This document shows positions 1 to 43,980 of a stretch of 64,000 bases of DNA, piece after piece. Under the pieces are notes generated by a model, which saw only the letters and a list, made by a program, of their open reading frames with translations, was not told the origin of the DNA and ran no database searches. Positions within the stretch are counted from its first letter, which is position 1. Each line of letters begins with the position of its first letter. Source of the stretch: Armatimonadetes bacterium Uphvl-Ar2 (lineage in GTDB: Bacteria > Armatimonadota > Fimbriimonadia > Fimbriimonadales > Fimbriimonadaceae); assembly GCA_002162095.1 (NCBI GenBank), contig CP021424.1, positions 744,001-808,000 of the forward strand, read 5' to 3'. Position numbers and translations under genes: made by a program.

Positions 1-1913
1 TGCAAGCTCTGATTCAAGCGGGCCAGCTTCCTGATGCCGCGTACCCGCCCATCCAGTGCGAGGCGCCGAAGCAACCGGACCACGGCGACCTCGCAGTGCC
101 TTTTGCCTTGGGGGCGGCGCGCTTTGCCGGCATGAACCCGCGTGCGCTGGCCGAACTCCTGGTCGAGCGCCTGCGCCAAAACCCGCTCATCGCTTCGGTG
201 GAGATTGCCGGGCCGGGGTTTGTCAACCTTCGCCTCTCGCCCACCGCCTACCAGCAAGCCCTGAACGCCGTTTTGAACTCCGCTGGCCAGAGCGTGCTGC
301 GTGACGCCGCGCACTTCGGTCGCCCCTCGTGTGAGCGACCCGAGCGCATCAACGTCGAGTTTGTGAGCGTGAACCCGAACGGCCCGATCACCATCGGGAG
401 CGGGCGCGGGGCGGCCTATGGTTCCGCCCTGTGCAACGTGCTGCAAGCCGCCGGCCACACGGTCCACCGCGAGTACTACATCAACGACGGCGTGAACAGC
501 GAGCAGATGCGCCAGTTCGCCCTCAGCGTCCGCGCGCTCAAGCTGGGCACCGAGTTCCCGGAGAAGGGCTACAAAGGCGATTACGTGCAGGCCGTGGCCG
601 ACCAGATCGAACCCCAAGGCGACCCCGACGTGATCTGGTGGCAACAGGAAGCCCAGGCCCTGATGCTGCAGCGCCAGCGCCGCGATCTGGAAACCTTCGG
701 CGTGGCCTTCGACACCTGGTTTAGCGAGCAAACGCTCCACGATTCGGGCCGCGTGCGGGCCTGCATTGACGAACTGGAAGCCAAGGGCATCGCCGATCGC
801 CAGCCCGTCCGCCGCTCCCTCAAGCTCGGCAAGAAGAGCGTGATCGAAGATGTGATCGTCGAAGATCAGCCGGTGGACGAAGATGACGCCGCCGGCAGCG
901 AGCCGACCGTGTGGCTGCGTTCCACCAAGCTGGGGGACGACAAGGACCGCGTGCTCCGCCGCAAGGATGGCCGCCTCACTTACATCGCCGGTGACGTGGC
1001 GTACCACGATGACAAGTTCAACCGCCCGGCCAACGCCGACCGCCTCATCACGGTGCTTGGCCCGGACCACCACGGGTTCATTGGTCGCCTCAATGCCGTC
1101 GTGGCGGCCATGCAAATGCCGCGCGTGGCCGCGAATGCCGAAGGCGAACCCCTAAGCGAGATTGATGCCAAGCGGTACACCAGCCCGGCCGAGCGCGACG
1201 CCTGCCAAGCCGCGGCCCAGGATGCCGAAAGCAAGCTGCTGGTGCAGATTTATCAGCTCGTGCGCTTTATGAAGGACGGCCAGCCCGCCCCCATGCGCAA
1301 GCGCGACGGCAACATCTACGCCATCAGCGACCTCATCGAGGAGATCGGCGCGCAGGCCGCCCCGCAGGCCGACCGCGAAGAGCAGGTTCGCATTGGGCGC
1401 GACGTGGCGCGGTTCTTCTACCTGATGCGCCACCACGACACCACGTTCGACTTTGACCTCGACCTGGCCGCCCGCCAGAGCGACGAGAACCCGGTGTTCT
1501 ATGTGCAATACGCCCACGCGCGCATCGAGCAGGTGCTTCGCCGCGCCCGCGAGGAAGCCAGCTCCCTCTACCCGGACAGCAACGCCGTAAACGGAGGTCT
1601 GACAGCCGCTGCCCGCGACCTGCACGAGCGGGAAAAACAGCTTCTGCTGCAAGTGTGCGCGCTGCCGGACGAAGTGGCCCTGGCCGCCGAAGACGGGGCG
1701 GTGAACCGCCTGACGAACTACGCGATGGAACTCGCCCGGGCGTACCACGGGTTCTATGACACCTGCCGGGTGATCGACACCGACGCCCCCGAGGTCTCGC
1801 AACAGCGTTTGGCCCTGTGCGTGGCGGCCCGGACGGCCCTGCAAGGCGTGCTGGAGTTGCTAGGCGTAAGTGCCCCGCTCCGAATGGATCGGCCCGCCGC
1901 GCCGTCGGAATGA
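1..1913 (+). CDS. argS: Arginyl-tRNA synthetase, 5' end cut by window
   Basis: This cytosolic enzyme charges tRNA-Arg with arginine using ATP. The frame is open from base 3, so the gene begins before the window. The conserved N-terminal segment PKQPDHGDLAVPFAL is read upstream of the first in-window GTG at 96, so that codon is internal. The catalytic Rossmann fold follows (REYYINDG), then the typical segment RFFYLMRHHDTTFDFDLDLA with SDENPVFYVQYAHARI and the DALR anticodon-binding C-terminus. The usual HxGH signature reads TIGS at 390-401, and the KMSK position reads PMRK at 1290-1301. The rest matches bacterial ArgRS well. A hypothetical gene follows after 7 nt. Confidence 0.95.
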   Translation, partial: QALIQAGQLPDAAYPPIQCEAPKQPDHGDLAVPFALGAARFAGMNPRALAELLVERLRQNPLIASVEIAGPGFVNLRLSPTAYQQALNAVLNSAGQSVLRDAAHFGRPSCERPERINVEFVSVNPNGPITIGSGRGAAYGSALCNVLQAAGHTVHREYYINDGVNSEQMRQFALSVRALKLGTEFPEKGYKGDYVQAVADQIEPQGDPDVIWWQQEAQALMLQRQRRDLETFGVAFDTWFSEQTLHDSGRVRACIDELEAKGIADRQPVRRSLKLGKKSVIEDVIVEDQPVDEDDAAGSEPTVWLRSTKLGDDKDRVLRRKDGRLTYIAGDVAYHDDKFNRPANADRLITVLGPDHHGFIGRLNAVVAAMQMPRVAANAEGEPLSEIDAKRYTSPAERDACQAAAQDAESKLLVQIYQLVRFMKDGQPAPMRKRDGNIYAISDLIEEIGAQAAPQADREEQVRIGRDVARFFYLMRHHDTTFDFDLDLAARQSDENPVFYVQYAHARIEQVLRRAREEASSLYPDSNAVNGGLTAAARDLHEREKQLLLQVCALPDEVALAAEDGAVNRLTNYAMELARAYHGFYDTCRVIDTDAPEVSQQRLALCVAARTALQGVLELLGVSAPLRMDRPAAPSE

Positions 1914-4166: not shown

Positions 4167-5666
4167 ATGCGCATGTGGATGCTGGATGTGGCGCGCGAGC
4201 AGTGCGTCACCCGCGAGCACCTGTTCCGATACGCCACCGAGACCCTAGACGCGGGCTACGACGCCCTGGGGCTGTACCTGGAACACCGTTTCGCCTACCC
4301 CAGCACCCCCTGGAGCCACGGCACCGGCGTCCTAACCCCGGAAACCATCCGGGCCGTGCGCAGCGAGTTCCCCAGCCTGCGCCTGGTGCCGTTTGTGAAC
4401 CTCCTCGGGCACGTGGAAGGGTTCCTCTACACCGAGCCTGGCCACCGCTGGGCCGAAGAAGAAATGAAGGGTCTGCAGGCGTGCCCGAGCAACCCGGACT
4501 TTGTGCGCTTTGCTGAGGGCATCCTCGATGACACCCTGGCCATCTTCGATGACGAATGGGTGCACATCGGTGGGGATGAAACCGCGCAACTGGGCAAATG
4601 CCCGACCTGCCAAGCCCGCGTGGACGCCCACCCCGGCGACGGCAAGGCCGCGCTCTACTCCGAACACTTCGGGCCGCTGGCTGCGCGCGTGGTGCAGGCC
4701 GGGCGGACCCCCGCCGTGTGGGGCGACATGTTCCTAGAGCACCCCGATGCCCTGGCCGCCATGCCCCGCGAGACGGTGCTGTTCGACTGGCAATACTTCA
4801 ACGGCGTGGCCGAAACGGCCGCCCGGCTGGGCGCGCACGGCCACCGGGTGGTGGGCTGCCCTGCACTGCACGTTTACAACGCGGCCTGGATGCACCTGGG
4901 CCCGAGCGACGAGAACATCCGCCAGGTGGCCCGCGATGTGCAAGCCCTGAACCTGGAAGGCGTGTGCCTGACCACCTGGGAGACCACGATGTTCAGCAGC
5001 TACGACACGCTTTTGCCGGCAGTGCGGGCGGCGCGGGCAATCATGGATGACCCCGAGGGGGCCCCGAGCTTGCTATCGGCTTACGATTCCGAGTGGGCGA
5101 ACCTGATGGGGGTGGCACTTAATGAACTCGGTGGGGTGTGGGGGCACAGCCGCCACCGCCACAAGTTGAAGTCGCGGATGTTCCTTTATGCCGACCCGTT
5201 CCTGGCCGGCCAGCACCACGCAGAGGAGATCTGCGGGCCGATGGGCGACCAAGCGCTGGCACTTGTTGAGCGCGCCTTTGCCGCCACCGACGATGAAGCC
5301 GAGAAGGGCGTGGCCCTGGCCTGCCGCAGCATGATCGAGTTTGTGCGGATGGCGCACGTGGCGCGGTTGCTCTACGCCGAAGGGCAAACCGAGCGGGCGG
5401 TGAGCGCTCTGGCCCCCACGCGGTATCTGTTCGAGACGCTGGAGCGGACGGCGAAGCGGACGCACGAGCGCATCGGCGGGAGCCTAGCCGACATCGAGCG
5501 GGCGCGGCGGGCCAAAGCGCACGTGGAGACGGTGATCCAGCGGATTCGGCAGTACGGGGATGGGTCGCTGGGCTACGTCCCGGCGTGGAACGTGCTGACC
5601 CACCCCAACTTTATGCCGCACGACCAGGCGAGCTGGTGGATTGTGAATTCTTGGGGTCGCCCGTGA
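4167..5666 (+). CDS. GH20-like beta-N-acetylhexosaminidase, cytoplasmic
   Basis: This 499-aa protein has a glycoside hydrolase family 20 TIM barrel. The key signature WVHIGGDET carries the substrate-assisted catalytic Asp-Glu pair (about residues 137-138) and is followed by a CPTC pair. It has no signal peptide and no GH20b N-terminal domain, so it is shorter at the N-terminus than the secreted GH20 at 39469 and probably acts on intracellular GlcNAc-containing fragments. The C-terminal third is helical and charged. Its last 127 or so codons are duplicated almost exactly at 7414-7796. It converges on the A-family gene at 5680 with a 13-nt gap. Confidence 0.82.
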   Translation: MRMWMLDVAREQCVTREHLFRYATETLDAGYDALGLYLEHRFAYPSTPWSHGTGVLTPETIRAVRSEFPSLRLVPFVNLLGHVEGFLYTEPGHRWAEEEMKGLQACPSNPDFVRFAEGILDDTLAIFDDEWVHIGGDETAQLGKCPTCQARVDAHPGDGKAALYSEHFGPLAARVVQAGRTPAVWGDMFLEHPDALAAMPRETVLFDWQYFNGVAETAARLGAHGHRVVGCPALHVYNAAWMHLGPSDENIRQVARDVQALNLEGVCLTTWETTMFSSYDTLLPAVRAARAIMDDPEGAPSLLSAYDSEWANLMGVALNELGGVWGHSRHRHKLKSRMFLYADPFLAGQHHAEEICGPMGDQALALVERAFAATDDEAEKGVALACRSMIEFVRMAHVARLLYAEGQTERAVSALAPTRYLFETLERTAKRTHERIGGSLADIERARRAKAHVETVIQRIRQYGDGSLGYVPAWNVLTHPNFMPHDQASWWIVNSWGRP

Positions 5667-5679
5667 GAGATCCTCGGGT

Positions 5680-6831
5680 TTAGCCAGGTCTAATGATTCG
5701 CATCAATTTGCCTGTATGCCCGGACCACATTTGCCCTCCTGGCATCGGAGTAACCCAATCCTCTCCACAGTCGGCGTACAGCATGAGAGTTCCCGTCAGG
5801 CTCTCTTCCACTGTAAGATCCCGCCAAACGGGGCCGAATCGCCTCGCAATGATGGGAACGTTCATAAGTTCTGCCCGCGTGAACTTCGCCCTGCCATCGT
5901 CGCCAATTCGCTCCGCAAGTTCTTGCGGGAAGCCCTCTTCCATCAAGCCCTTGATGACCAATTCCCGATAGGTTTTCGCGGCATCCTTGACAATCGTGCG
6001 GCGGTCCTGAACGAAGAACGGTATCGTATCGAGAACTTCGCGCATTCCTTCCAAGATTTCTGTAGTCGTGAACTTGCCTTTCAAGAAGACTTTGGGTTCT
6101 CCGAGCCGCGCATCGTAGCGGCACGTGTATCCCATTCCGGAGATAATGGCAATCACTTGCTGGACGGTCAACAACCGACCTTCGCCAAAATCCAGTGACT
6201 TTGGAAGCTCCTCAGTTGTGGTCTTCGGCGTCATCCACCCTGCTTGGCCAGATGGTCGTACACTTGACTGTCGATTATCCTTCTCAGGAATCGTAAAGAT
6301 TGTTCGATCTTCTCCTTGATCAAGAATGGTAATCCTAGCTTTGATAAAAAGTGGAACATCCTTTCGGTCTTGAACGGCCTGATTCACGCTTGGGTTGATC
6401 CGAGTAACAGACAAGATTAATTCGTGTTCCTCTGCCGAAAGCTGCTGAAAGCTTAGACCCTTAAACAACGCGTCCGACCGAGTCCGGACGAAATCCCACA
6501 GTCCGGCCCCTTCCCCGACTGCCATCAAAGAAGGTACGTCTTTACGCCGCGCCAGAACATCCGCGCGGCCCACCACCACATGGCGGCGCAACGACATCTG
6601 GGCGACTTCGGCCAGGCTTTCCGCCCGGATCGTCCCGTCCTCAGCCGTACTGACATCGGACGGATACCAGTTGTGAGCATCAAGAATCAATGGTCCTGGG
6701 TGGGCAACCCACAGCTCACGCAGTTCATCCTGATTAAGTGTGGAGCCAGGGTCAACTGGGGTGGCCGGCTGGGCCATGCTCTGACAACAAAGCATGGCCG
6801 CCAGAATCGGCATCAACGATGACGCTCGCAT
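5680..6831 (-). CDS. Family A secreted protein A1
   Basis: This 383-aa exported protein of unknown function is one of four paralogues here. The frame is open upstream to 6870, but ATG 6831 (MRASSLMPILAAMLCCQSMAQ) begins a clean signal peptide 11 nt after the B1 stop. The mature protein has three conserved blocks: HPGPLILDAHNW; VGRADVLARR; and LDFGEGRLL followed by RYDARLGEPKVFLKGKF. The third block resembles the small STN/N-domain found before secretin and TonB-receptor barrels; that assignment is inference. The mature part is about 95% identical to A2 at 7810-8988. GC is clearly lower than in the GH20 gene next to it. It is probably translated with B1 as an operon. Confidence 0.8.
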   Translation of the reverse strand: MRASSLMPILAAMLCCQSMAQPATPVDPGSTLNQDELRELWVAHPGPLILDAHNWYPSDVSTAEDGTIRAESLAEVAQMSLRRHVVVGRADVLARRKDVPSLMAVGEGAGLWDFVRTRSDALFKGLSFQQLSAEEHELILSVTRINPSVNQAVQDRKDVPLFIKARITILDQGEDRTIFTIPEKDNRQSSVRPSGQAGWMTPKTTTEELPKSLDFGEGRLLTVQQVIAIISGMGYTCRYDARLGEPKVFLKGKFTTTEILEGMREVLDTIPFFVQDRRTIVKDAAKTYRELVIKGLMEEGFPQELAERIGDDGRAKFTRAELMNVPIIARRFGPVWRDLTVEESLTGTLMLYADCGEDWVTPMPGGQMWSGHTGKLMRIIRPG

Positions 6832-6842
6832 GGCTTCGAAGC

Positions 6843-7313
6843 TTACTCTCCCGCGCCAGTGATACTGCATGGGTCTACTTCGATGTGGTGCGTTAGGTAG
6901 TTGTACGGCAATGTCACACTTTGCTCGTATGGTGTCGTTGGCAACAACGTCGGCATACTCGGATAAGGGTGATCGCTGTTTTGGAGAAAGAAGTACACGG
7001 TCCCATAGAAGCCGATCCCGTAATCGTACTCAAAGGTTTTCGGCTCAGTGTTAAAGTTCGTCGAGTACGTCATCGCCGGGAGCGGTGATTGGGTCGTGTA
7101 CTTACCTGGCGTTCCCGTTTGCCATCGTTGCCATGACCCAAAGATCGGAGTCACGGTATGGGAAACGGTACCCCGACCTGAGCAGCCGCTGAACGGCTTC
7201 GATCCGATGTAAATCTTCCAGGGAATCCTCTCGTCGTCAATTGGGTTGTACGTCTGAGCAAAGGCACAGCTCAGAATGGAAAGGGTCCCGATCGCTACTA
7301 ATGCAAGTCGCAT
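6843..7313 (-). CDS. Family B secreted protein B1
   Basis: This 156-aa protein has a clear signal peptide (MRLALVAIGTLSILSCAFAQ). The mature part is rich in Tyr, Pro, Thr and aromatic residues, with YNPIDDERIPWKIYIGSKPF near the start and GIGFYGTVYFFLQN in the second half. Two Cys residues in the first half-loop and tail (SGCSG and DPCSI) match those of paralogue B2 at 13862-14347, suggesting one disulfide. It is the first gene of a B1-A1 pair. The predicted -10 box lies 6 nt before the ATG with no ribosome site, so the mRNA may be leaderless. The function is unknown. Confidence 0.75.
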   Translation of the reverse strand: MRLALVAIGTLSILSCAFAQTYNPIDDERIPWKIYIGSKPFSGCSGRGTVSHTVTPIFGSWQRWQTGTPGKYTTQSPLPAMTYSTNFNTEPKTFEYDYGIGFYGTVYFFLQNSDHPYPSMPTLLPTTPYEQSVTLPYNYLTHHIEVDPCSITGAGE

Positions 7314-7319
7314 AAAGGA

Positions 7320-7349
7320 ACGCTACCCCCCCCACCTCAGGCGTGTCAA
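7320..7349 (-). promoter_or_regulatory. Promoter of B1-A1 with G8 spacer tract
   Basis: On the minus strand there is a perfect TTGACA (7344-7349), an 18-nt spacer ending in eight G (7326-7333), then TAGCGT (7320-7325) and 6 nt to the ATG at 7313. The same arrangement occurs upstream of B2. The G run lies directly against the -10 box, where a change in its length would change promoter spacing. Confidence 0.6.
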
Positions 7350-7413
7350 GGTCTGCGCGAAAATCTTAACAAAAAAGTTGCCCCGCGACCAATTTGAACC
7401 TAAATCTACTTTC

Positions 7414-7796
7414 CCACCGACGATGAAGCCGAGAAGGGCGTGGCCCTGGCCTGCCGAAGCATGGTCGAGTTTGTGCGGATGGCGCACTTGGCGCACCTGC
7501 TTTACGCCGAGGGGCAAACCGAGCGGGCGGTGAGCGCTCTGGCCCCCACGCGGTATCTGTTTGAGACGCTGGAGCGGACGGCGAAGCGGACGCACGAGCG
7601 CATCGGCGGGAGCCTAGCCGACATCGAGCGGGCGCGGCGGGCCAAAGCGCACGTGGAGACGGTGATCCAGCGGATTCGGCAGTACGGGGATGGGTCGCTG
7701 GGCTACGTCCCGGCGTGGAACGTGCTGACCCACCCCAACTTTATGCCGCACGACCAGGCGAGCTGGTGGATTGTCAACGCTTGGGGTCGCCCGTGA
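7414..7796 (+). pseudogene. Duplicated 3' fragment of the GH20 gene
   Basis: This fragment matches 5284-5666 almost base for base and keeps the reading frame to the TGA, but it lacks the catalytic barrel and any upstream start region. It encodes only the last 127 or so residues. Differences from copy 1 cluster in its first half (for example AHLAHLLYAEG against AHVARLLYAEG). It is joined directly to the remnant of the reductase gene tail. It is a by-product of the tandem duplication, not a functional enzyme; an in-frame GTG at 7440 could at most give a short product. Confidence 0.85.
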
Positions 7797-7809
7797 GACA
7801 ATCTCGGGT

Positions 7810-8988
7810 TTAGCCAGGTCTAATGATTCGCATCAATATGCCTGTATGCCCGGACCACATTTGCCCGCCTGGCATTGGGGTAACCCAATCCTCTCCGCAA
7901 TCGGCGTAAAGCATGAGAGTTCCCGTCAGGCTCTCTTCCACTGTAAGATCCTGCCAAACGGGGCCGAATCGCCTCGCGATAATGGGAACGTTCATAAGTT
8001 CTGCTCGCGTAAACTTCGCCCTGCCATCGTCGCCAATGCGCTCCGCAAGTTCTTGAGGGAAACCCTCTTCCATCAAGCCCTTGATGACCAATTCCCGATA
8101 GGTTTTCGTGGCATCCTTGACAATCGCACGGCGGTCCTGAACGAAGAACGGAATCGTATCAAGAACCTCGCGCATTCCCTCCAAGATTTCCGTAGTCGTG
8201 AACTTACCTTTCAAGAAAACTTTGGGTTCTCCGAGCCGCGCGTCGTAGCGGCACGTGTATCCCATTCCGGAGAGAATGGCTACAATCTGTTGAACGGACA
8301 ATAACCGACCTTCGCCGAAATCCAGTGACTTTGGAAGCTCCTCAGTAGTTGTCTTCGGCGTCATCCACTCTGCTTGTCCAGATGGTCGTATACTTGGCTG
8401 CCGATTATCCTTCTCAGGAATCGTAAAGAATGTCCGATCTTCTCCCTGATCAAGAATCGTAATTCTGGCCTTAATGAAGAGAGGAACATCCTTCCGGTCT
8501 TGAACGGCCTGATTCACACTAGCGTTGGTCCGTGTGACAGACAAGATTAACTCGTGCTCGTCCGCCGTAAGCTGCTGAAAGCTTAGACCCTTAAACAACG
8601 CGTCCGACCGAGTCCGGACGAAATCCCACAGTCCGGCCCCTTCCCCGACTGCCATCAAGGAAGGTACGTCCTTCCGTCTCGCCAAAACATCCGCGCGGCC
8701 CACCACCACATGGCGGCGCAGCGACATCTGGGCGACTTCCGCCAGGCTTTCCGCCCGGATCGTCCCGTCCTCCGCTGTGCTGACATCGGACGGATACCAG
8801 TTATGCGCATCGAGAATCAGTGGCCCTGGGTGGGCAACCCAAAGCTCGCGCAGTTCATCCTGATTGAGTGTGGATCCGGTATCAACAGGGGTGGACGACT
8901 GACTCTGCGATCTTGCTGATTGACCGAGGGAAACCCCGAAAAGGCAGCAACAAAATGCAATCAGGTAGGTGATACGTAAGATCGACAT
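7810..8988 (-). CDS. Family A secreted protein A2
   Basis: This 392-aa exported paralogue of A1 has about 17 substitutions in roughly 350 mature residues. ATG 8988 follows TTGGAGTCTGGAA, a good ribosome site, and gives the signal peptide MSILRITYLIAFCCCLFGVS. The frame stays open to 9030, but the longer start has no such site. All family blocks are present: HPGPLILDAHNW, VGRADVLARR, LDFGEGRLL, RYDARLGEPKVFLKG and FFVQDRR. Its signal peptide and upstream region are unrelated to those of A1, and it has no B partner, so it probably uses a different promoter. The function is unknown. Confidence 0.8.
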   Translation of the reverse strand: MSILRITYLIAFCCCLFGVSLGQSARSQSQSSTPVDTGSTLNQDELRELWVAHPGPLILDAHNWYPSDVSTAEDGTIRAESLAEVAQMSLRRHVVVGRADVLARRKDVPSLMAVGEGAGLWDFVRTRSDALFKGLSFQQLTADEHELILSVTRTNASVNQAVQDRKDVPLFIKARITILDQGEDRTFFTIPEKDNRQPSIRPSGQAEWMTPKTTTEELPKSLDFGEGRLLSVQQIVAILSGMGYTCRYDARLGEPKVFLKGKFTTTEILEGMREVLDTIPFFVQDRRAIVKDATKTYRELVIKGLMEEGFPQELAERIGDDGRAKFTRAELMNVPIIARRFGPVWQDLTVEESLTGTLMLYADCGEDWVTPMPGGQMWSGHTGILMRIIRPG

Positions 8989-9083
8989 TTCCAGACTCCA
9001 ACGAGTTGGCAGTCTAGCACTATCCAACACGCTCTCGGCAAGCTCAATTCAGACAAAAATCTTGGCCAGCGACCAATTTGAAC

Positions 9084-10091
9084 CTAAGTCGGCTTTCCCA
9101 CCGACGACAAATCCATGTCGCTGCTGTGCCCGGGGAACAGCTTCGCGTTCGGGTCCAGGTGCTGCTTGGCCACGCACACCGCGGTAGCCGCTTCGCCCAC
9201 CCCCGTCGCGATCAGTTTTATCTTCCCTTCAAACGTGCAGACATCCCCCACCGCAAACACCCCCGGTAGGTTGGTGCGATACAGATGATCCACCTCAATC
9301 TGGTTCTTGGTGATCGTCATCCCCCAATCCTTGAGCGGCCCCAGGGACGACTTAAACCCGATATTCACAATCACTTGATCGCACGCCACATCCTCAAAGC
9401 TCTTCTCGGTGGTGTGTTGCAGCGTCACCCCGGTCAGGGCTCCCGGCGCCCCGTGCAGCGCCGTCACTTGCTGCCACAGCAAGAACTCGATCCCCAAATT
9501 CTGCGCCGCCCGCACGCTCTCTTCGTGCGCGCGGAACTGGTCGCGCCGGTGCACCAGCCGCACCCGCTGCGCCACGGGGTGCAGGGCCAGCGCCCAGTCG
9601 AAGGCGCTATCCCCGCCCCCCACAATCAGCACATCCCGGTCGCGGAACGTCTCCAGGCTCCGCACGCCGTAGTACACGCCCTGGTTCTCCCAGTCCGCTT
9701 CACCTTCCAGGCCAATCCGAGTCGGAGAAAAAGCCCCCGCCCCCGCCGCCACGATGATGGTGCGGGTAGGCAGAGCCACGCCCGAGGTGGTGGTGATGAC
9801 ATACCCCTCCTCATCCGCCGCCAGGTGGTCGGCCGTCTCGCCCAGCACCAGGTCGGGGTGGAACTGCGTCCCCTGCTGAATCAAATCGCGCGCCAAATCC
9901 TTGGCCAGCACGGCCGGGAACCCCGGCATATCGTAAACGTACTTCTCCGGGTAGAGCGCGGTGAGCTGCCCGCCCAGTTCGGGCAAGCTATCCAGAATCC
10001 GCACCGACATCCCGCGCAGCCCGGCGTAGAAGGCGGCAAACAGGCCGGTGGGGCCGCCCCCAATGATCGTGACGTCCACTCGATCGTGCAT
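9084..10091 (-). CDS. Ferredoxin-NADP reductase, type 2 (TrxB-like flavoprotein)
   Basis: This 335-aa flavoprotein transfers electrons between NADPH and ferredoxin or flavodoxin. It has two nucleotide-binding Rossmann motifs: IIGGGPTGLFAA near the N-terminus for FAD and VLIVGGGDSAFDWA mid-protein for NADPH. The C-terminal FAD segment reads GVFAVGDVCTFEGKIKLIATGVGEA. It lacks the CxxC redox centre of thioredoxin reductase, which places it in the YumC/type 2 FNR group. The frame opens at a TTG (10100), but ATG 10091 gives the canonical N-terminus. Its last codons lie inside the word shared with the duplication remnant at 7386-7413. Confidence 0.9.
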   Translation of the reverse strand: MHDRVDVTIIGGGPTGLFAAFYAGLRGMSVRILDSLPELGGQLTALYPEKYVYDMPGFPAVLAKDLARDLIQQGTQFHPDLVLGETADHLAADEEGYVITTTSGVALPTRTIIVAAGAGAFSPTRIGLEGEADWENQGVYYGVRSLETFRDRDVLIVGGGDSAFDWALALHPVAQRVRLVHRRDQFRAHEESVRAAQNLGIEFLLWQQVTALHGAPGALTGVTLQHTTEKSFEDVACDQVIVNIGFKSSLGPLKDWGMTITKNQIEVDHLYRTNLPGVFAVGDVCTFEGKIKLIATGVGEAATAVCVAKQHLDPNAKLFPGHSSDMDLSSVGKPT

Positions 10092-10163
10092 CCCTCTCAA
10101 TTTACGCCCCCGCGCGGTTCCCCCGTCCGACCCAGGGGGCCATCGGCCTTGCCCGCAGGCAAC

Positions 10164-10196
10164 AAAAAGCCCCCGCTCCAGCGTTGGAGCGAGGGC
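10164..10196 (-). terminator. Rho-independent terminator after the PrsA-like gene
   Basis: On the minus strand a GC-rich hairpin (CGCTCCA paired with TGGAGCG, extended by CCC/GGG) is followed by TTTTTG. It lies 32 bases past the stop of the lipoprotein gene at 10228. Confidence 0.8.
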
Positions 10197-10227
10197 GAGG
10201 AGAACCAGGGGAGAGCCAATCGGCGGG

Positions 10228-11259
10228 TTAATTGCCGGCGGTAGTGCCGGTCTTGGCTTCTTGTTCCTTCAGCGCTTCGCCGAAGGTTTCCATGAAGCGT
10301 TCCCACATGCCCTTCAGGTAGCTCTTGTCCACGGTGACCGTGCTGTCCTTCAGGCGCTTGGCGATGCGGTCGTTGAGGTCCACCGCCTGGGCGCCCTGAG
10401 CCTTGGCGAGGTCGCGGCGGATGCGCTCGCGGCGCTCCTTGGTGATCTCGATCTTGCTCTCTTGGGTGCGGCGTTCCACCAGGTACTTCACCTGTTCGTT
10501 GTCGGCCAGCTTGATCCAGGCGGTGGCGCGGCCCGGAGCCGTGGTGGTCAGGCCCGTATAGAGCGTGCGCACCACCGGGGCGGCCACCTGCGCCTTCATG
10601 GCGGTCAGGTTCAGTTCGCTGCGGCTGGGCACGTTCTGGGGGTTCACTTCGCGGGCCACGTCGGTGAAGTTGCGGCCTTGGCTCAGAAGGTTGTCGGCGC
10701 GCTGCTTGCTGCGCTCATCACGCACCACAATCTGCACCACTTCGGCCATCGCAGGCTTCAGGAACGCGTTGGGGCTGTCCTTAATGAACTTGTCCACTTG
10801 CTGGTCGCTGATCTTGATGCCTTCGGTCAGCAGGTGCTCTTGGGCCAGGTCCACACGGATGGACTGGCGGATCTGCTCCATGGTCAGGCCACGGGCCTGC
10901 AGGTTCTTTACGTAGCCCGGGTTGATCTTTTCGAGCGTGGCGATTTCGGCCTGCACGGCGGTGTCGTCCAGCTTGAAGCCCTTGTCTCGCGCCATCTGAA
11001 TGATGAGCTTTTGCGTGACGAGGTCTTGCAAGGCCTGGAAGGCGATGGTGTTGGCCACAGGGACCTCAAGCTGTCGGTTGTCCACCACCACGCGGACGGT
11101 GGGCTTCGTCTCGATGTGCTTGATGAACTCTTCCATGGTGATGGGGTCACCGTTCACGGTCGCAAGGGTTTCTTCTCCCCGGTTGCAACCGGTGAGGGCC
11201 AGGGCCGCCAGAGCGGCGGCGGTCCAAAGTCCATACTTTCCAAACATAATGCTATTCAT
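10228..11259 (-). CDS. PrsA/SurA-like peptidyl-prolyl isomerase lipoprotein
   Basis: This 343-aa protein has a lipoprotein signal ending in the lipobox LALTGC, so it should be anchored to a membrane facing the periplasm. The frame extends upstream to 11373, but ATG 11259 (MNSIMFGKYGLW) starts the signal and is preceded by GGGAG. After the lipobox, TLATVNGDPITMEEF is the typical SurA/PrsA N-terminal entry, followed by a helical chaperone region. A degenerate parvulin domain (VVQIVVRDERSKQRADNLL, then GRNFTDVAREVNPQNVP) and a charged helical tail follow. It probably assists folding of exported proteins. The isomerase motif is weak, so a pure chaperone is possible. Confidence 0.82.
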   Translation of the reverse strand: MNSIMFGKYGLWTAAALAALALTGCNRGEETLATVNGDPITMEEFIKHIETKPTVRVVVDNRQLEVPVANTIAFQALQDLVTQKLIIQMARDKGFKLDDTAVQAEIATLEKINPGYVKNLQARGLTMEQIRQSIRVDLAQEHLLTEGIKISDQQVDKFIKDSPNAFLKPAMAEVVQIVVRDERSKQRADNLLSQGRNFTDVAREVNPQNVPSRSELNLTAMKAQVAAPVVRTLYTGLTTTAPGRATAWIKLADNEQVKYLVERRTQESKIEITKERRERIRRDLAKAQGAQAVDLNDRIAKRLKDSTVTVDKSYLKGMWERFMETFGEALKEQEAKTGTTAGN

Positions 11260-11399
11260 GGCTCCCGCAAGGGGGTGAGCGGAGATCGCTCCACTCGTCA
11301 CAACACATTTGGCGCAAAGTTCGTGCCAGATGGGCCGGACCCTGGTAAGGATACCGGGATTCGGCGGGCCCATTGGGCGTACGGGAGGCTAGGGCGAAG

Positions 11400-12602
11400 C
11401 TACGGCGCCGGAAGGCCGTGACCTAGCGCACCTTGGCTCACAGTTATCCCATCTGCCCGCAAAGAACTCCAAATGAAGCCTGGATCACACCAGAATCGAA
11501 GCCCAACTTCCATCCGAATCACTTGGTCAGCCTCCCTTTCCTCGCTGCTCATTCTCGCCTTAAGCGGCTCAACCTCGCGAAACTCTTTCTTCGTAGCCAC
11601 GATTTCGTAAACCATCGTGGCCGTCGGCAATTCGAGCCGCTCCGCCAGAGATGGGGGGAATCCCCTTTTGATCAATGCCGCGACCAACATTTCCCGGTAT
11701 CTGGCCGGCATATGGTTCCTTTGGGCGCGCAGGTCTTGGGCAGACATGGGAATGGTTTGCAACACCTCCCTCAATGACTCCAAAATTTCGCCGACTTCAA
11801 AAACACCCTTCACGAAGATCGGAGAGCCCTCGATTCGCGCATCGTAGCGAACGGAGTATCCGAGCTCAGCCACACGTCCGATCAGTTCACGAGTCGTCAA
11901 CATCTCGCCGCCGCCAAAATCGAGGGTAAGAGCCTCCGGCTGAGGAACGGCACGCGGTGCTGCCCATGCAGGATTACCCGTGGGCGCGTTTACGACTGCT
12001 TCATGAATCCGAAATCCTCCGACCGAGCGTAACTGACCATTCTCCATCCAAGACATGCTCGCACCGAGCACCATGGGGGCGGTTGAATTGTTCCGAAGTG
12101 CGTGAAGAAAGGCGGGCGATGAGAATCCCACATCGGTCCACAATTCACGCTCGTCGGCCGTGAACTGATTGAGGGGCAGCCCTTCGAGCAAAGCGTCAAA
12201 GCGCTGACTGGCAAAAGCGTAAAGGGAGTGGGGTCGGCCCATGCGCAAGGAGGGGCTGACTTCGAGCCGCCGGGCGAACACATCGGCTCGCCCCACCTGG
12301 ATGTATCGCCGCTTCCCGGCCTGGGCTATCACTTTGAGGTCCGGCTCCCGAATCACTCGGTCACCATCCATCACGGTTTCGTTAGGGAGCCAGTCATTGG
12401 CGTCCACCATCAGCGGACCGGGGTGCAGGGACCACTCTTGTTTGACCCGGGCGATAACATCGCGGGCAAACTCACCTTCCTCCTGAGCGCTTGACTGGGC
12501 CATGCCGAGAGACGGAACGAGCCCGGTAAGAACAATGGTCGCCAAAAACGCGATCCGCTGGTAAGCGTGGTGTCGAGTCATCACCCCTTCCCCAAAAGGC
12601 AT
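11400..12602 (-). CDS. Family A secreted protein A3
   Basis: This exported protein of about 400 aa is a diverged paralogue of A1 and A2. It keeps HPGPLMVDANDW, VGRADVFARR, LDFGGGEML and RYDARIEGSPIFVKGVF, followed by EILESLREVLQTIP. ATG 12602 follows TTTGGAGTCAGA, very like the site before A2; the internal ATG 12581 (MTRHHAYQRIAFLATIVL) would give a shorter, more typical signal peptide and also has a purine-rich stretch upstream. It lies 83 nt downstream of A4 on the same strand, probably in one transcript B2-A4-A3. GC is lower than in the genes flanking the region. The function is unknown. Confidence 0.75.
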   Translation of the reverse strand: MPFGEGVMTRHHAYQRIAFLATIVLTGLVPSLGMAQSSAQEEGEFARDVIARVKQEWSLHPGPLMVDANDWLPNETVMDGDRVIREPDLKVIAQAGKRRYIQVGRADVFARRLEVSPSLRMGRPHSLYAFASQRFDALLEGLPLNQFTADERELWTDVGFSSPAFLHALRNNSTAPMVLGASMSWMENGQLRSVGGFRIHEAVVNAPTGNPAWAAPRAVPQPEALTLDFGGGEMLTTRELIGRVAELGYSVRYDARIEGSPIFVKGVFEVGEILESLREVLQTIPMSAQDLRAQRNHMPARYREMLVAALIKRGFPPSLAERLELPTATMVYEIVATKKEFREVEPLKARMSSEEREADQVIRMEVGLRFWCDPGFIWSSLRADGITVSQGALGHGLPAP

Positions 12603-12685
12603 TCTGACTCCAAAGACGACGAGAAGCGAACCGAAGTTACAGGTGGCTTCGATCTACCTACGACTCCGGCGGCTCCAAGACAGCT

Positions 12686-13858
12686 CTATCCAGGAGTAAC
12701 GATGAGCTGGAAGACGCCCCTAACTCCCTGTTGAATGCCCGTGTATGGCGACGTTGAAACCCAGGTCTCCTCAGTATCCATGTGAAGCATGATTTTGACC
12801 GACACATTCAAACGCTCGTTGCGATTACCCCACCTTGCTTCATAGCCTTGCTTCATTCGAGGAAAGCTCATGAGTTCCTGCATCGTAGCCTTCAAGGTCC
12901 CATCATTCTCAATCCGCTCACACAGGGCGGGCGGGAAGCCGTGTTCCTCCAGCAGACTCTTTGCCATGTCGCGGTAGGTGGCCTGAGCAGTCCCTGCCAC
13001 ATTTCTACGATCCTGAACAAACAAGGGGATCGTTTGGGCAACCTCAGCAAGGGACTGCAATAGCTCTTGCACCTCAAATGTGCCTTTCAAAAAGAGCTTT
13101 GATTCAGCGAGGCGGGCATCGTAACGCACGACAAAACCTCTTTCATTGAGCATCGAAGCCAAGAGGCGAATGGAGATGAGCCGTCCATCACCAAAATCAA
13201 TCGCTTCGCTGCTTTGGACACCAAGCGGCCTTTCACTGGCCCACGTCGGACGGCCAGCTGGCATTTCCGAGTTCTTGCGAATCGGGCTTGAAGTACTGAA
13301 TCGCAGCGCTTCTTCGCCGAGAGAACTTGTCCAAACCAGATAGGGGAATAGCTTGAATTCGCCTTCTCCCCGATTCAGGATCCTACGCTGGGCGGAAGGC
13401 ACTTGAGCCGTCGTGCTCGCTAGCATTTCAACTTCTTCCGCACTCAACTCCTTTAGCGGCATTCCCTTCTTGAGCAGAGGGGCACGTGCAACGACAAAAT
13501 CCCATATCGAACCTATGCGACCGGCTTGGCGCCACGCACTTGCGTCAATGAGTCGGGCAAACACGTCCGCCCGCCCAATGCGCTTCCAGCGTCGGTTCTC
13601 AACTTGCGCGATTTTCGCCAGGTCCGGCTCGCATATACGCTGCTCCGAATCACTCATCGATTCCGGGCCGACCCAGTTCAATGCATCAAGCATTAAAGGC
13701 CCGGGGTGGTACTCCCACTGCTTTTTGAGTACAGCAATCGGGATGTATCCCAGGTCAGATTGAGATGGGGAACCGCCGGGTTCCTGTAATGTTCCCCTGG
13801 CAACCCCTGCAGCACCAAATGCAAGGAGTAGCGGAACAATAACTGACTTCCTTGTCAC
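12686..13858 (-). CDS. Family A secreted protein A4
   Basis: This 390-aa exported paralogue starts at a GTG (13858) preceded by GAGGAG at ideal spacing; that ribosome site sits in the last codons of B2, only 3 nt from the B2 stop, so the two are translationally coupled. The signal peptide is MTRKSVIVPLLLAFGAAGVA. The family blocks are HPGPLMLDALNW, IGRADVFARL, IDFGDGRLIS and RYDARLAESKLFLKGTF, then QTIPLFVQDRR. It is clearly diverged from A1/A2 outside these blocks. The function is unknown. Confidence 0.78.
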   Translation of the reverse strand: MTRKSVIVPLLLAFGAAGVARGTLQEPGGSPSQSDLGYIPIAVLKKQWEYHPGPLMLDALNWVGPESMSDSEQRICEPDLAKIAQVENRRWKRIGRADVFARLIDASAWRQAGRIGSIWDFVVARAPLLKKGMPLKELSAEEVEMLASTTAQVPSAQRRILNRGEGEFKLFPYLVWTSSLGEEALRFSTSSPIRKNSEMPAGRPTWASERPLGVQSSEAIDFGDGRLISIRLLASMLNERGFVVRYDARLAESKLFLKGTFEVQELLQSLAEVAQTIPLFVQDRRNVAGTAQATYRDMAKSLLEEHGFPPALCERIENDGTLKATMQELMSFPRMKQGYEARWGNRNERLNVSVKIMLHMDTEETWVSTSPYTGIQQGVRGVFQLIVTPG

Positions 13859-13861
13859 GTC

Positions 13862-14347
13862 TTACTCCTCAGCCGGTGGCGTGCCACCACAGCGGTTGAA
13901 AGTCATTTCGAACTCGGGCGTATTGTAGTCCATTGCCAGACTGCTCTGAGGCGTGCCCCCGACAAGAGGAGGCACAGATGTTGGGCCATAGACGTTGTTC
14001 TTCAGGTAGACGTACATGGTCCCGTAAAAGCCAACTCCTGTTGGTTTCCCCCAATTACGGATGACGAAGTCCTGTTGGAAGTTGTAAAAGATGTAAGGCC
14101 AGGGCCAAGTTGTGGGCATTGTACCGGGAGTATTGTTTTCCCACCTCGTCCACGATTTGTAGTGGATCGCTGATAGCACCGTCACCTGCGGACCCTGACA
14201 TCCGGTGTAGGGAGTAGATCCGATGTACATATACCAGGGCACGATCTGGTCATCTAATGGATGCCATTGAGCCGAAGCCACGGCTGGCACCGATGCAAGG
14301 GCAATTGCAGCAATAGTTGTACTTAGATTCCAAGCCTTACTGAGCAT
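13862..14347 (-). CDS. Family B secreted protein B2
   Basis: This 161-aa exported paralogue of B1 has a signal peptide ending near VPAVASAQ. It shares HPLDDQIVPWYMYIGSTPY, the central aromatic region, GVGFYGTMYVYLKN and the two Cys positions (TGCQG and NRCGG) with B1. It is the first gene of B2-A4-A3. The intergenic stretch from the sigma-factor stop (14401) to this start is only 53 nt and contains the conserved G8 promoter. No ribosome site precedes the ATG. The function is unknown; pairing with an A gene twice in the window suggests the two products work together. Confidence 0.75.
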   Translation of the reverse strand: MLSKAWNLSTTIAAIALASVPAVASAQWHPLDDQIVPWYMYIGSTPYTGCQGPQVTVLSAIHYKSWTRWENNTPGTMPTTWPWPYIFYNFQQDFVIRNWGKPTGVGFYGTMYVYLKNNVYGPTSVPPLVGGTPQSSLAMDYNTPEFEMTFNRCGGTPPAEE

Positions 14348-39468: not shown

Positions 39469-41571
39469 ATGTTCCGGTGGCTTGGTTTTCTTTTGGTGGG
39501 GTTGTGCGCGGTGGCGAGCGCCCAGGAACTTCTGCCCACGCCGCAGGAGATGACGCGCACCCGGCAGATTGCGCCCGTGAGCGTGCGCCTGAACGTGAAC
39601 TCCACGGATTTTCCGGTGCAAACCCAGGCGTTTCGGCAGGATTGGTCGGTGGCCAGCGCGGCGGGTGCGCCGCAGCTCATCTTGATGAAAGACCCGACGT
39701 TGCCCGAAGAGGGCTATCGCATCGAGTTCGGCGGAACCATTGAAGTACGAGCAAGCACCCCCACGGGGGCGGCCTGGGGACTGCAGACCCTTGGCCAGAT
39801 GTTGGCCTCGGGCACCAAATCGGCCGTGGTGACTGACGCCCCCGATACACCCTTCCGGTGCGTGATGATTGACGTCGCCCGCCGCTACCACAGCATCTCC
39901 ACGCTCAAACGATTGGTGCGTTGGGCCGCGCTGGGCAAGGTCCGCTTCATTCAACTTCACCTCACCGACGACCAGAACTGGATGCTGCCGAGCACCGTCG
40001 TCCCCGGGATCGACAAGCTCAACACTCACCAGCGGCCCGCCTATACCCGGGCTGAATTGGAGGAACTCCAGGCGTTCGCTACCGCGCGCGGCGTCACCCT
40101 CATCCCCGAAGTTGAGTTCCCCGGCCACGCCGCCATCCTCTGCAAGTACGACCCGGCCAAGTACCGGCTGGCGGGGTCAGCGTCCGAGAACTGCATCAAC
40201 TTTGGCTCCGAAGCGGTGCGGAAGACCTGCCGGGACATCCTCGCCGAAACCGCCGCCATCTTCAAGGATTCGCCTTACATCCACTTCGGGGGTGACGAAG
40301 CGTGGTACCCCGACGCGGACAAGGACCCCCAGTTCCGCACGGCGATGGACCGGCTTGGCCCCGGGGCCGACGCCAACCGGGTCTTCATTGACTTTGTGGG
40401 GGACATGGCCCAAGAAGTGGTGAAGCAGGGCAAAACCCCGCTGGTGTGGGAGGGATTCCCGCGATCCGACTTTGCCAAGGAGAGGATCCCGGCGGAGACG
40501 GTTGTCATCGCCTGGGAAAATCACTACTACCCCGCCACTCAGCTTGTGGAGGACGGCTTCAAGGTCATCAATGCCGGTTGGGACCCTTACTATGTGGTCA
40601 ACCACTACCCTTGGGATGCCTACACTCTGGTGCCGCTGGCACGACTCTACAACCACGACCCGGACGTATTCGGCATCGTGGCGTGGAACGACCCCGCGCT
40701 GAGTGCGGCGAAGATCGGGCCGGGGCTGTACGGTTCGCTCATGCCCTGGTGGGAGGGCCACGAATGGAACACCTTGGCCGTGATGCCGGAGCGCATTCTG
40801 GCCTTTGGGTGCCGCTTGTGGAACCGGGAGTGCGAAAGTGGCTACTTGGGCTTCCGGCGCCGGGCGCGGCACTGGCTGGGCACCGTAGCCCGGGCTTCGC
40901 AACCCTTCGAATTGGTGATTGAGGGGACTCGGGCAGAGAACCCCGAGCAATTCACCGCCCATTCCCGGGTGTCGGCGAAGTCGGAGGCGGGCTTCCATTT
41001 TGCGTACCGCACCGACACTCTCGTGCCCACCCGCGCGGATATCCGAGATTTCGTAACCCTCGACCAGAGCGGAGTTGTGACGGTGCAGGCCTTTCGGGAT
41101 GGCATTCCCGTGGGAGAAGCCGCCTTCGTGCGCTTGAACAAGGTGACGGAAGTGCCGAACCTGGCCCGGGGAGCCAAGGCGTGGAGTTCCGCCCCCACTG
41201 ACCCCCAATTCGCTGCCGACCTGGTGACGGACGGGGTGGCGGATGACATCGGCTCCTTTTGGATGTGCTACCCCTTGCCCGCCGACCTTACGGTCGATTT
41301 GGGGCGGGCGGTGGAGGCCCGGCGCGTGGAGATCGTCGCCTTCTACGCCGCCGGGAGTGCGCTGCAGTACCGAGTCCAAGTCAGCGCCGATGGCTTGACT
41401 TGGGAAGAAGTGGCGGACGCTTCCGCGAACACGACCGGCGCCAAGGCTGAGGGATACGTTCACCGGTTCAGCCCGCGCCCGGTGCGGTATGTGAGGGTGC
41501 AGGCCCTGCGTTCGCTCCAGCACCCCAGCACGATGCCTCGCATCCACGAGATTCGGTTGTTCAACGACTGA
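39469..41571 (+). CDS. Secreted GH20 beta-N-acetylhexosaminidase with discoidin-like domain
   Basis: This 700-aa exported enzyme removes terminal GlcNAc/GalNAc from glycans or chitin fragments. It has the signal peptide MFRWLGFLLVGLCAVASAQ, then a GH20b zincin-like N-domain (LPTPQEMTRTR to GAAWGLQTLGQML). The GH20 barrel starts FRCVMIDVARRYHS and carries the catalytic pair in YIHFGGDEAW (about D276-E277). A beta linker and a C-terminal F5/8 type C/CBM32-like domain (ADLTVDLGRAVEARRVEIV, VRYVRVQALRSL) follow. The long open frame upstream of 39469 is antisense to gmhA and is not coding. Confidence 0.92.
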   Translation: MFRWLGFLLVGLCAVASAQELLPTPQEMTRTRQIAPVSVRLNVNSTDFPVQTQAFRQDWSVASAAGAPQLILMKDPTLPEEGYRIEFGGTIEVRASTPTGAAWGLQTLGQMLASGTKSAVVTDAPDTPFRCVMIDVARRYHSISTLKRLVRWAALGKVRFIQLHLTDDQNWMLPSTVVPGIDKLNTHQRPAYTRAELEELQAFATARGVTLIPEVEFPGHAAILCKYDPAKYRLAGSASENCINFGSEAVRKTCRDILAETAAIFKDSPYIHFGGDEAWYPDADKDPQFRTAMDRLGPGADANRVFIDFVGDMAQEVVKQGKTPLVWEGFPRSDFAKERIPAETVVIAWENHYYPATQLVEDGFKVINAGWDPYYVVNHYPWDAYTLVPLARLYNHDPDVFGIVAWNDPALSAAKIGPGLYGSLMPWWEGHEWNTLAVMPERILAFGCRLWNRECESGYLGFRRRARHWLGTVARASQPFELVIEGTRAENPEQFTAHSRVSAKSEAGFHFAYRTDTLVPTRADIRDFVTLDQSGVVTVQAFRDGIPVGEAAFVRLNKVTEVPNLARGAKAWSSAPTDPQFAADLVTDGVADDIGSFWMCYPLPADLTVDLGRAVEARRVEIVAFYAAGSALQYRVQVSADGLTWEEVADASANTTGAKAEGYVHRFSPRPVRYVRVQALRSLQHPSTMPRIHEIRLFND

Positions 41572-41573
41572 AA

Positions 41574-41594
41574 TCAGGCACAGCACGGCCTGCA
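41574..41594 (+). repeat. Direct repeat, left copy, beside the nuclease-helicase island
   Basis: This 21-base word TCAGGCACAGCACGGCCTGC plus one base lies directly after the GH20 stop. It matches 43725-43745 at all but about three positions, in the same orientation. The two copies flank a single low-GC gene. Confidence 0.6.
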
Positions 41595-41694
41595 ACGGCC
41601 CTTGCAAGCAACCGGAATCCAGTTGTCTAGACCTGTATTCATTCAATCAGAACATGACTTGACTTCAGCTGTGCAATAGTTGTGGTAATCCGAG

Positions 41695-43722
41695 ATGCTC
41701 GATGATCGAACACTTCAAATAAAATCTGATCTGCTGTCGGGAAGAGCTTACTATTCCGCGAGAATTGGAGATTTCCTCGAATCAACTGAAAGCGAAATCC
41801 TATCTTCGCTCGTACGATCGTCTTCCTTCGCCGTCGAGCAGACCCAGCGTGATGCTTGGCTGATGCAGATTGAAGTCATGCGCTCTTCCCTTCGAGACGC
41901 TGATAAGCACGGACTCGTCGCATTTGAGTTTTATGTGCCACGCATGGGCAAACGCATTGACGTGCTGGTCGTTGCTGGAAGCGTGGTTCACGTAATCGAG
42001 TTCAAAGTCGGGGACGCCACATACAGCTCCGATGCACTTACACAGGTCTTCGATTATGCGTTAGACATGAAAAACTTCCACAGTACGTCTCACGCGGTCA
42101 CGGTCGCTCCCATTCTTGTAGCCACTCTCGCTCCGGCAGCCGAGATTGTTCCGACCATTACTCGGGACTACGACGGGGTTGTTCGCCCATTGAAAGCAAA
42201 TGGCACATCACTGGCCGAAGTCATGCAGTTCGTTGAGAGATGCTCAGATGGGCCGACAATCGATGCCGAGGTATGGGCAGCGGGCAGCTATAAACCAACT
42301 CCCACGATCATTGAGGCTGCCAAAGCACTCTATAATGGGCACGGCGTTGAAGATATAACTCGCCGGGAAGCCGCGGCGATCAACTTGTCTCAGACATCTC
42401 GGAAGGTAGAAGAGATCATCCATGGTGCCCGTAAGAACAAGCACAAGGCTATTTGCTTCGTGACAGGGGTGCCAGGCGCTGGGAAAACTCTTGTGGGTCT
42501 CGACATTGCGAACAAGCACTTCGATCCAACCAGTGACTTGTACAGCGTATTCCTTTCGGGAAACGGACCCCTTGTGGCCATCCTTTGCGAGGCTCTTGCA
42601 CGAGATAAGGTTGATCGGTCGAAGGAAATAGGTACATCACTTAAGGTAGGGCAAGCTCGCAGCGAGGTGAAGTCGTTTGTCCAGAATGTCCACCACTTCC
42701 GGGATGAGTGCATCCGTGATAGTGACAAGCCTCCTGTGGAGCACGTAGCGCTCTTTGACGAAGCTCAGCGCGCCTGGAATCAGGAACAGACCTCATCTTT
42801 CATGCGGCGCAAAAAGGGCAACTCAAACTTCACGATGTCAGAACCTGCATTCTTAATTTCCTGTATGGACCGGCACGACGATTGGGCCGTAATCGTGTGT
42901 CTTGTAGGCGGAGGGCAAGAAATCAACACTGGAGAAGCAGGAATTGGTGAGTGGTTGAGAGCCATTCGATCGGATTTCCCTGACTGGCATGTTCACCTCT
43001 CGCCAAACCTCCACGACTCAGAATACGAGGCGGGATCTACCCTCGATCTTCTCAGTAGTCATGCCCATGTTCATACCCACGAGAGCCTTCACTTATCAGT
43101 GTCAATGCGCTCATTTCGGGCCGAGCACGTCTCAAGTTGGGTCAAAGCGATGCTCGATGCTGACGTCGATGCTGCCCGTACGGCATGGTCTCGAATCCAT
43201 GTCAAGTATCCGATCTATCTGACCAGAGACTTGAACGCAGCCAAGAGTTGGGTTCGAGCGTGTGCCCGAGGCTCTGAGCGATACGGCATCGTTGTGTCAT
43301 CCCAAGCACAAAGGCTCAAGCCAGAGGGGATTGATGTTCGTTATGACATTGACCCCGTGCACTGGTTCCTGCACCCGAGAGAAGACGTTCGTAGTTCGTA
43401 CTACTTGGAGGATGCTGCAACCGAGTTTGATGTGCAGGGCCTCGAACTTGACTGGACTTGTGTCGTCTGGGACGGCGATCTCCGATTCGGCTCCGACGGT
43501 TGGGAGCACTGGAATTTCAAAGGGCCACGCTGGCAAAGGGTCAAGACAGAGCCTCGACAAGCTTTCCTGAAAAATGCGTACCGGGTGTTGTTGACGCGAG
43601 CGCGCCAAGGAATGGTGATCGTAGTACCCCGAGGCAACCCTGACGATCCAACACGCGATCCGTCGATCTATGACGGGACGTATCAGTACCTCAAGGGACT
43701 CGGGCTTCGAGAGCTAGCCTAG
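41695..43722 (+). CDS. PD-(D/E)XK nuclease plus DUF2075 helicase-like protein
   Basis: This 675-aa protein probably combines nuclease and ATPase activity on DNA or RNA. The N-terminal domain has the nuclease signature RIDVLVVAGSVVHVIEFK (D89, E102, K104). The C-terminal superfamily 1-like part is DUF2075: Walker A GVPGAGKT (258-265), Walker B VALFDEAQR (D355-E356), then GGGQEINTGEAGIGEWLRAI, AATEFDVQGLELDW and YRVLLTRARQGMVIVVP. Such proteins are frequent in defence islands. GC is clearly lower than in both neighbours, it is a single gene, and near-identical repeats and a tRNA gene flank it. These signs suggest horizontal transfer. Confidence 0.85.
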   Translation: MLDDRTLQIKSDLLSGRAYYSARIGDFLESTESEILSSLVRSSSFAVEQTQRDAWLMQIEVMRSSLRDADKHGLVAFEFYVPRMGKRIDVLVVAGSVVHVIEFKVGDATYSSDALTQVFDYALDMKNFHSTSHAVTVAPILVATLAPAAEIVPTITRDYDGVVRPLKANGTSLAEVMQFVERCSDGPTIDAEVWAAGSYKPTPTIIEAAKALYNGHGVEDITRREAAAINLSQTSRKVEEIIHGARKNKHKAICFVTGVPGAGKTLVGLDIANKHFDPTSDLYSVFLSGNGPLVAILCEALARDKVDRSKEIGTSLKVGQARSEVKSFVQNVHHFRDECIRDSDKPPVEHVALFDEAQRAWNQEQTSSFMRRKKGNSNFTMSEPAFLISCMDRHDDWAVIVCLVGGGQEINTGEAGIGEWLRAIRSDFPDWHVHLSPNLHDSEYEAGSTLDLLSSHAHVHTHESLHLSVSMRSFRAEHVSSWVKAMLDADVDAARTAWSRIHVKYPIYLTRDLNAAKSWVRACARGSERYGIVVSSQAQRLKPEGIDVRYDIDPVHWFLHPREDVRSSYYLEDAATEFDVQGLELDWTCVVWDGDLRFGSDGWEHWNFKGPRWQRVKTEPRQAFLKNAYRVLLTRARQGMVIVVPRGNPDDPTRDPSIYDGTYQYLKGLGLRELA

Positions 43723-43724
43723 AT

Positions 43725-43745
43725 TCAGGCGCAGCACGTCCTGCG
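43725..43745 (+). repeat. Direct repeat, right copy, beside the nuclease-helicase island
   Basis: TCAGGCGCAGCACGTCCTGCG lies directly after the nuclease-helicase stop and matches the left copy at 41574. This copy is also a near-perfect palindrome (GGCGCAG with CTGCGCC), so it might also serve as a terminator hairpin. Confidence 0.6.
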
Positions 43746-43766
43746 CCGAGGTGGGAAAGGGGAAGG

Positions 43767-43843
<77 letters not shown>

Positions 43844-43980
43844 GCGAGCCGTCAATATACCCCACGCCCTGCAGGCCCATGAATCGGGTAGGCCCGTCAC
43901 ACGTCAGTACCCTCGGTAGACAAGGCAGGACTCACCTCGGTATTCTCACGGGTAAGTCTGCTTTGCGGACGAGACGACTT

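Follow-up and report, generated by a model that had tools for sequence, protein, structure and literature searches.

In the complete genome (2.63 Mb) of Armatimonadetes bacterium Uphvl-Ar2 there are two families of exported proteins, here called A and B, in which a small B gene recurrently comes directly before the larger A gene, the A genes are under purifying selection, and no other neighbour is conserved. The explanation that we favour, at a probability of about 0.45, is that A is an exported binding protein with two STN-like modules in tandem and B its small exported partner, which would be bound outside the cytoplasm.

The locus and its turnover

The window, i.e. the whole stretch of DNA that was analysed, comprises 64,000 nt of contig CP021424.1. 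As the first-pass annotation had proposed, four secreted A proteins and two secreted B proteins are encoded at 5680-14347; all six ORFs are in place and have signal-peptide-like N-termini, many of which end in AxA-Q or similar. From low to high coordinate the gene order is ArgS, hypothetical, HemW, GH20, A1, B1, GH20 3' fragment, A2, reductase, SurA/PrsA-like chaperone, A3, A4, B2 and sigma factor, where ArgS, HemW and the reductase are what we take these genes to be, partly from recognition. The features are:

4167-5666: gene with a GH20 domain (Pfam match 5e-15)
5680-6870, minus strand: A1, putative exported tandem-STN-like protein of 396 aa, likely start ATG 6870 or 6831
6843-7313, minus strand: B1, small exported protein of 156 aa, directly upstream of A1
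about 7414-7796, plus strand: duplicated 3' fragment of the GH20-type gene, holding a 118-aa ORF (7440-7796)
7810-9030, minus strand: A2, duplicate of A1 (~95% aa identity), without B
9084-10100: gene for a ferredoxin-NADP-reductase-like FAD protein (name partly by recognition)
10228-11373: gene for a SurA/PrsA-like chaperone
11400-12602, minus strand: A3, 400 aa, following A4 without a separate B
12686-13858, minus strand: A4, 390 aa, directly downstream of B2
13862-14347, minus strand: B2, small exported protein of 161 aa
14401-15186: sigma factor gene

The B gene directly precedes the A gene in both pairs, in line with the earlier description: the B1 and A1 ORFs share 28 nt if translation of A1 begins at 6870 (the other candidate ATG, at 6831, falls just past the B1 stop), and B2 and A4 are spaced by 3 nt. 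The low GC content noted earlier is also borne out, with values of 0.52-0.58 for the six A and B genes, 0.61-0.67 for the neighbouring genes and 0.626 for the window. A second low-GC stretch at 41000-44000 of the window contains a tRNA-Ile gene (43767-43843) and is possibly an rRNA operon. A1 has 36% identity to both A3 and A4, and the three sequence blocks reported as shared among the A proteins do recur, lying inside longer conserved regions; B1 and B2 are 34% identical and match each other directly (E 6e-22).

The segments 5284-6771 and 7414-8901 are 92.8% identical over 1489 bp, and at the junction the end of the reductase gene is present a second time (55-62 bp), with 7369-7423 repeating 9053-9107. 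A1 and A2 therefore arose by a tandem duplication whose endpoints lie within the GH20 and reductase genes, and the GH20 3' fragment is its by-product. The suggested local expansion thus holds in so far as A1 and A2 are duplicates, but it amounts to a plain tandem duplication ending in flanking genes. Where the two copies do not match, one contains B1 together with the signal peptide of A1 and the other just the differing signal peptide of A2, and since B1 is present in just one duplicate, B has been lost from, or gained by, one of them. The dN/dS of A1 versus A2 is 0.07, which indicates that both copies have been retained under selection.

Two congeners illustrate how rapidly the locus turns over. 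One of them (G001) has an orthologue of A3 with 94% identity in the expected place and a dN/dS of 0.20, versus 0.00-0.08 for six neighbours of A3, so that A3 evolves faster than its surroundings, yet is constrained. At the site of A1 and A2, the gap between the reductase and GH20 genes, the same genome has one A gene, closest to A4 (48% identity), while A4 and B2 are absent at the A3 site and both of its A genes are without B. The other congener (G002) has an empty site, with the reductase and GH20 genes directly abutting (10258-10261 of L161), and no A gene was found in it by profile search. As a separate observation, the ArgS ORF of G001 (L014:13050-15374, minus strand) includes an extra stretch of 130 aa that is absent from ArgS of the window (96-1913) and has 69.5% identity (E 4e-60) to the N-terminal portion of a PilB/GspE-like ATPase encoded next to it; this is either a domain insertion or an assembly artefact.

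Distribution of A and its pairing with B

Profiles built from ten, and then 25, A proteins retrieved about 34 near-full-length A genes from about 17-19 of 255 Armatimonadota genomes, and the members are linked to each other by BLAST. Nearly all belong to the window's own family, Fimbriimonadaceae; the exceptions are G048, from another family of the same order, and G141, from another family of the phylum. Three additional A genes of the source genome are located at 2.01 and 2.02 Mb. No relatives of A were found in searches of phages, plasmids and viral contigs, nor did we find literature on either family in Fimbriimonas or Armatimonadetes. Judged by its sequences, A is a family of the Fimbriimonadaceae and Armatimonadota that is new here, and the original suggestion of a lineage-specific exported system is supported.

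Recurrence of the B-A pairing in related genomes had been named as a check on the system, and the pairing does recur: 14 of the ~34 A loci, distributed over 12 genomes, two of which (G048 and G141) are outside Fimbriimonadaceae, have a small exported B-like gene immediately upstream of A. The B-like ORFs are 120-161 aa long and in most loci end at about -41 to +35 nt relative to A. The pairs outside the window proper or counted with it are as follows:

G028, G015, G007, G091, G004, G075, G076, G029, G048 and three loci of the source genome: B ending about -41 to +35 nt from A
G141: B 227 nt from A
G031 (L129 about 4250-4830): signal peptide and body of B in different frames near a G run

The break in the G031 frame represents a frameshift, a phase-variable tract or an assembly error. 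Of 29 A genes, 11 have a small exported ORF directly upstream, compared with 6 of 106 long genes of other kinds (Fisher p = 4e-5); one of the 11, in front of A at L016:9893-11143, seems to be spurious, and the counting rule did not pick up the pair of G028. No other gene family was found beside A in more than two genomes, which leaves B as the sole recurrent neighbour, and a larger conserved operon around A was rejected on this ground.

B varies so strongly that it escapes ordinary sequence searches: with BLAST and the first profile it was found only in the source genome and G028, and the remaining copies were recognised by inspecting the sequence upstream of each A gene. The B proteins are mostly cysteine-containing and rich in aromatic residues, with a Cys or CxC about 15-25 residues after the mature N-terminus, a central W/G, "YAKN"-like and "PYN" motifs in some, and a terminal Cys or an acidic/Gly tail. 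A leave-one-out profile test with 400 shuffles each supports homology for 7 of 13 B proteins (B2, G028, G015, G007, G091, G004 and G141; 0-0.75% of shuffles reaching the score). G048 (1.8% of shuffles) and B3 (4.5%) are borderline, and B1, G075, G076 and G029 are not significant, B1 still matching B2 directly.

The association is asymmetric. Co-occurrence is not strict: A2, A3 and the two A genes of G001 are among the majority of A genes with no B nearby, and A and B as obligate partners were accordingly rejected. With more than half of the A genes in this situation, A is able to function on its own or with a B encoded elsewhere, a point against the favoured explanation. An intact B away from A was not seen at E<1e-3 with a joint B profile in the 255 genomes, a profile that missed the G075 and G031 copies.

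STN-like regions in A

Neither A nor B reaches the cut-off of any Pfam or NCBIfam model, and searches against Pfam, NCBIfam, PADLOC and PDB sequences, with single sequences and alignment members, gave matches at chance level only, those of STN type excepted. The statement that A and B have no known family therefore holds at the level of these models, but profile-profile comparison suggests that A is probably related to the STN/FecR_C/secretin-N0 fold, with two such modules per protein. In A1 they are placed as follows, with approximate limits:

6510-6740, minus strand: STN-like region 1, ~mature residues 10-86, with the HPGPL and GRADV blocks
6000-6190, minus strand: STN/FecR_C-like region 2, ~mature residues 193-256, including DFGEGRL, RYDARL and VFLKGKF

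The comparison used hhalign with STN domains from the same genomes and FecR_C domains from the phylum as templates, and shuffled and reversed sequences as decoys. Region 1 scored 24-28 with the STN or STN+FecR_C template (decoy maximum 11-12) and 18.9 with FecR_C alone (decoy maximum 13.2). Region 2 scored ~21 with the FecR_C or combined templates (decoy maximum 15-16), and its score of 15 against STN alone is at the edge of the decoys (maximum 13-16). The hhalign probabilities for the STN-type matches of A are ~15-72%. When region 2 of 25 sequences was compared with Pfam, three of ten sub-threshold matches were of STN fold, namely FecR_C (E 0.0055), STN (0.24) and the secretin N0 domain T3S_SPI-1_N0 (0.26), where the FecR_C and STN matches concern the same place in the same A member. 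The STN cut-off of 28.4 bits (PF07660) was not reached, the best value being 11.7 bits in one A member, and the A proteins of the window gave no match to this model.

An AF2 model of A1 (pLDDT 73.5) has a secondary structure in agreement with an STN-type fold at both regions, with helix 13-19, strand 27-30, helix 49-58 and strands 61-66 and 69-74 in region 1, and strand 198-201, helix 202-211, strand 226-230 and helix 235-246 in region 2. A fold search of the whole A model against the PDB (Foldseek, VIA-align 2) gave no match, which does not exclude the fold; the model of B (pLDDT 41.6) is too low in confidence to use. The proposed architecture of A has STN-fold modules at the mature N-terminus and in the middle, a helical and beta part between them, and helices and a beta-rich C-terminus after the second.

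STN domains of FecR/PupR and of transducers are periplasmic protein-protein binding modules, usually N-terminal to other domains, while PupR has a C-terminal one (PMC7186176). Region 1 of A resembles the STN domain (PF07660) of TonB-dependent transducers and secretins in its order of helices and strands, its profile similarity above decoys and its location at the mature N-terminus, but A is far below the Pfam cut-off, lacks a following beta-barrel and plug or secretin domain, and would have two copies in one stand-alone exported protein. The transducers have a plug and a 22-strand barrel, whereas A is ~400 aa long with no Pfam match. For region 2, FecR_C (PF16344), the periplasmic C-terminal STN subdomain of FecR/PupR, is the best fold-consistent sub-threshold match, above decoys; the weak match to secretin N0 (e.g. 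T3S_SPI-1_N0) is of the same fold class. FecR-type sigma regulators have a cytoplasmic anti-sigma domain and one membrane helix, while A begins with a signal peptide, and neither a match to an anti-sigma domain in A nor a recurrent sigma-factor or transducer gene beside A was found. The secretin pore domain PF00263 has no match in 25 A proteins, in contrast to the true secretin of the window (53580-56423, minus strand; Pfam Secretin 5e-31, Secretin_N and STN), the gene of which is not adjacent to the A genes. Adjacent ORF pairs of ~260 and ~540 aa, both STN-matching, were also observed at G000:C1:713191-714134 and in similar places in other genomes, and seem to represent a further stand-alone STN family in this group.

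A possible partnership outside the cytoplasm

If the favoured explanation is correct, A and B would form a self-contained exported module of two proteins, expressed together from abutting or overlapping ORFs on one transcript. A would bind B outside the cytoplasm through its STN-like modules and would carry, display or sense it, with B as a variable ligand, cargo or effector. A surface or periplasmic location of both proteins is consistent with their predicted signal peptides and, for A, with the STN-like fold. That A is common without B and B unseen without A fits a carrier with its cargo or a receptor with its ligand, and equally a toxin with its immunity protein.

The last of these is one of the two main competitors: B would be a small exported antibacterial toxin or bacteriocin-like protein and A, likewise exported, its immunity protein or receptor, with orphan A genes serving as spare immunity. 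Like exported toxin-immunity pairs, A and B are two adjacent genes, B upstream, with orphan second genes, quick divergence and fast local turnover, and the observed asymmetry is the expected one. We nevertheless hold this to be quite unlikely, since A is large for an immunity protein and appears to carry modules of receptor type, no toxin or immunity domain was recognised in either protein, and PADLOC, searched with A only, gave no match above noise; the asymmetry itself is weakened by the limited reach of the B search, which missed two copies. It is also conceivable, but in our judgement unlikely, that A and B are co-expressed and exported for one process without touching each other, for example as independent envelope or matrix proteins. 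The many solitary A genes would be accommodated by such an arrangement, which explains less well why no solitary B was seen and why, across unrelated chromosomal sites, B alone has stayed next to A.

Two further possibilities concern the reality of the fold and of the function. Should the STN resemblance be spurious, as sub-threshold Pfam scores, moderate hhalign probabilities and the lack of a fold match might suggest, A would be a new fold and the pairing with B would still be real; this seems distinctly improbable to us, because two regions independently score above both kinds of decoy, shuffled and reversed, with the register that is expected, and the secondary structure of the A1 model agrees with STN. 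Finally, the reductase-GH20 and sigma-SurA gaps might be insertion hotspots of selfish or decaying genes, with A and B having no lasting function. Low GC, gain and loss among congeners and the duplicated gene fragment are what such hotspots would produce, but every A ORF in the window is intact, purifying selection is at work, and no phage, plasmid or viral-contig relative was found, so that we give this very little credence.

One may go further than the binding of B by A and speculate that the two families constitute a phylum-wide, hypervariable exported recognition system, in which A, as a tandem-STN receptor, and B, as a small and fast-changing ligand or effector, would mediate recognition of neighbours, signalling or competition. 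We regard this wider role as doubtful at present; to our knowledge, no system of this kind is known in Armatimonadota.

The A/B system is ordinary as a lineage-restricted exported family, and unusual in its hidden pairing and its putative tandem STN-like architecture. The envelope biology of Armatimonadota is little known, and A and B add to it two unnamed families whose gene order is conserved, a partnership that can be tested, and a probable connection with a known protein-binding fold, here in the unusual arrangement of two STN-like modules in a stand-alone exported protein. The B-A pair recurs at unrelated chromosomal sites, and it may be a new protein-recognition system.
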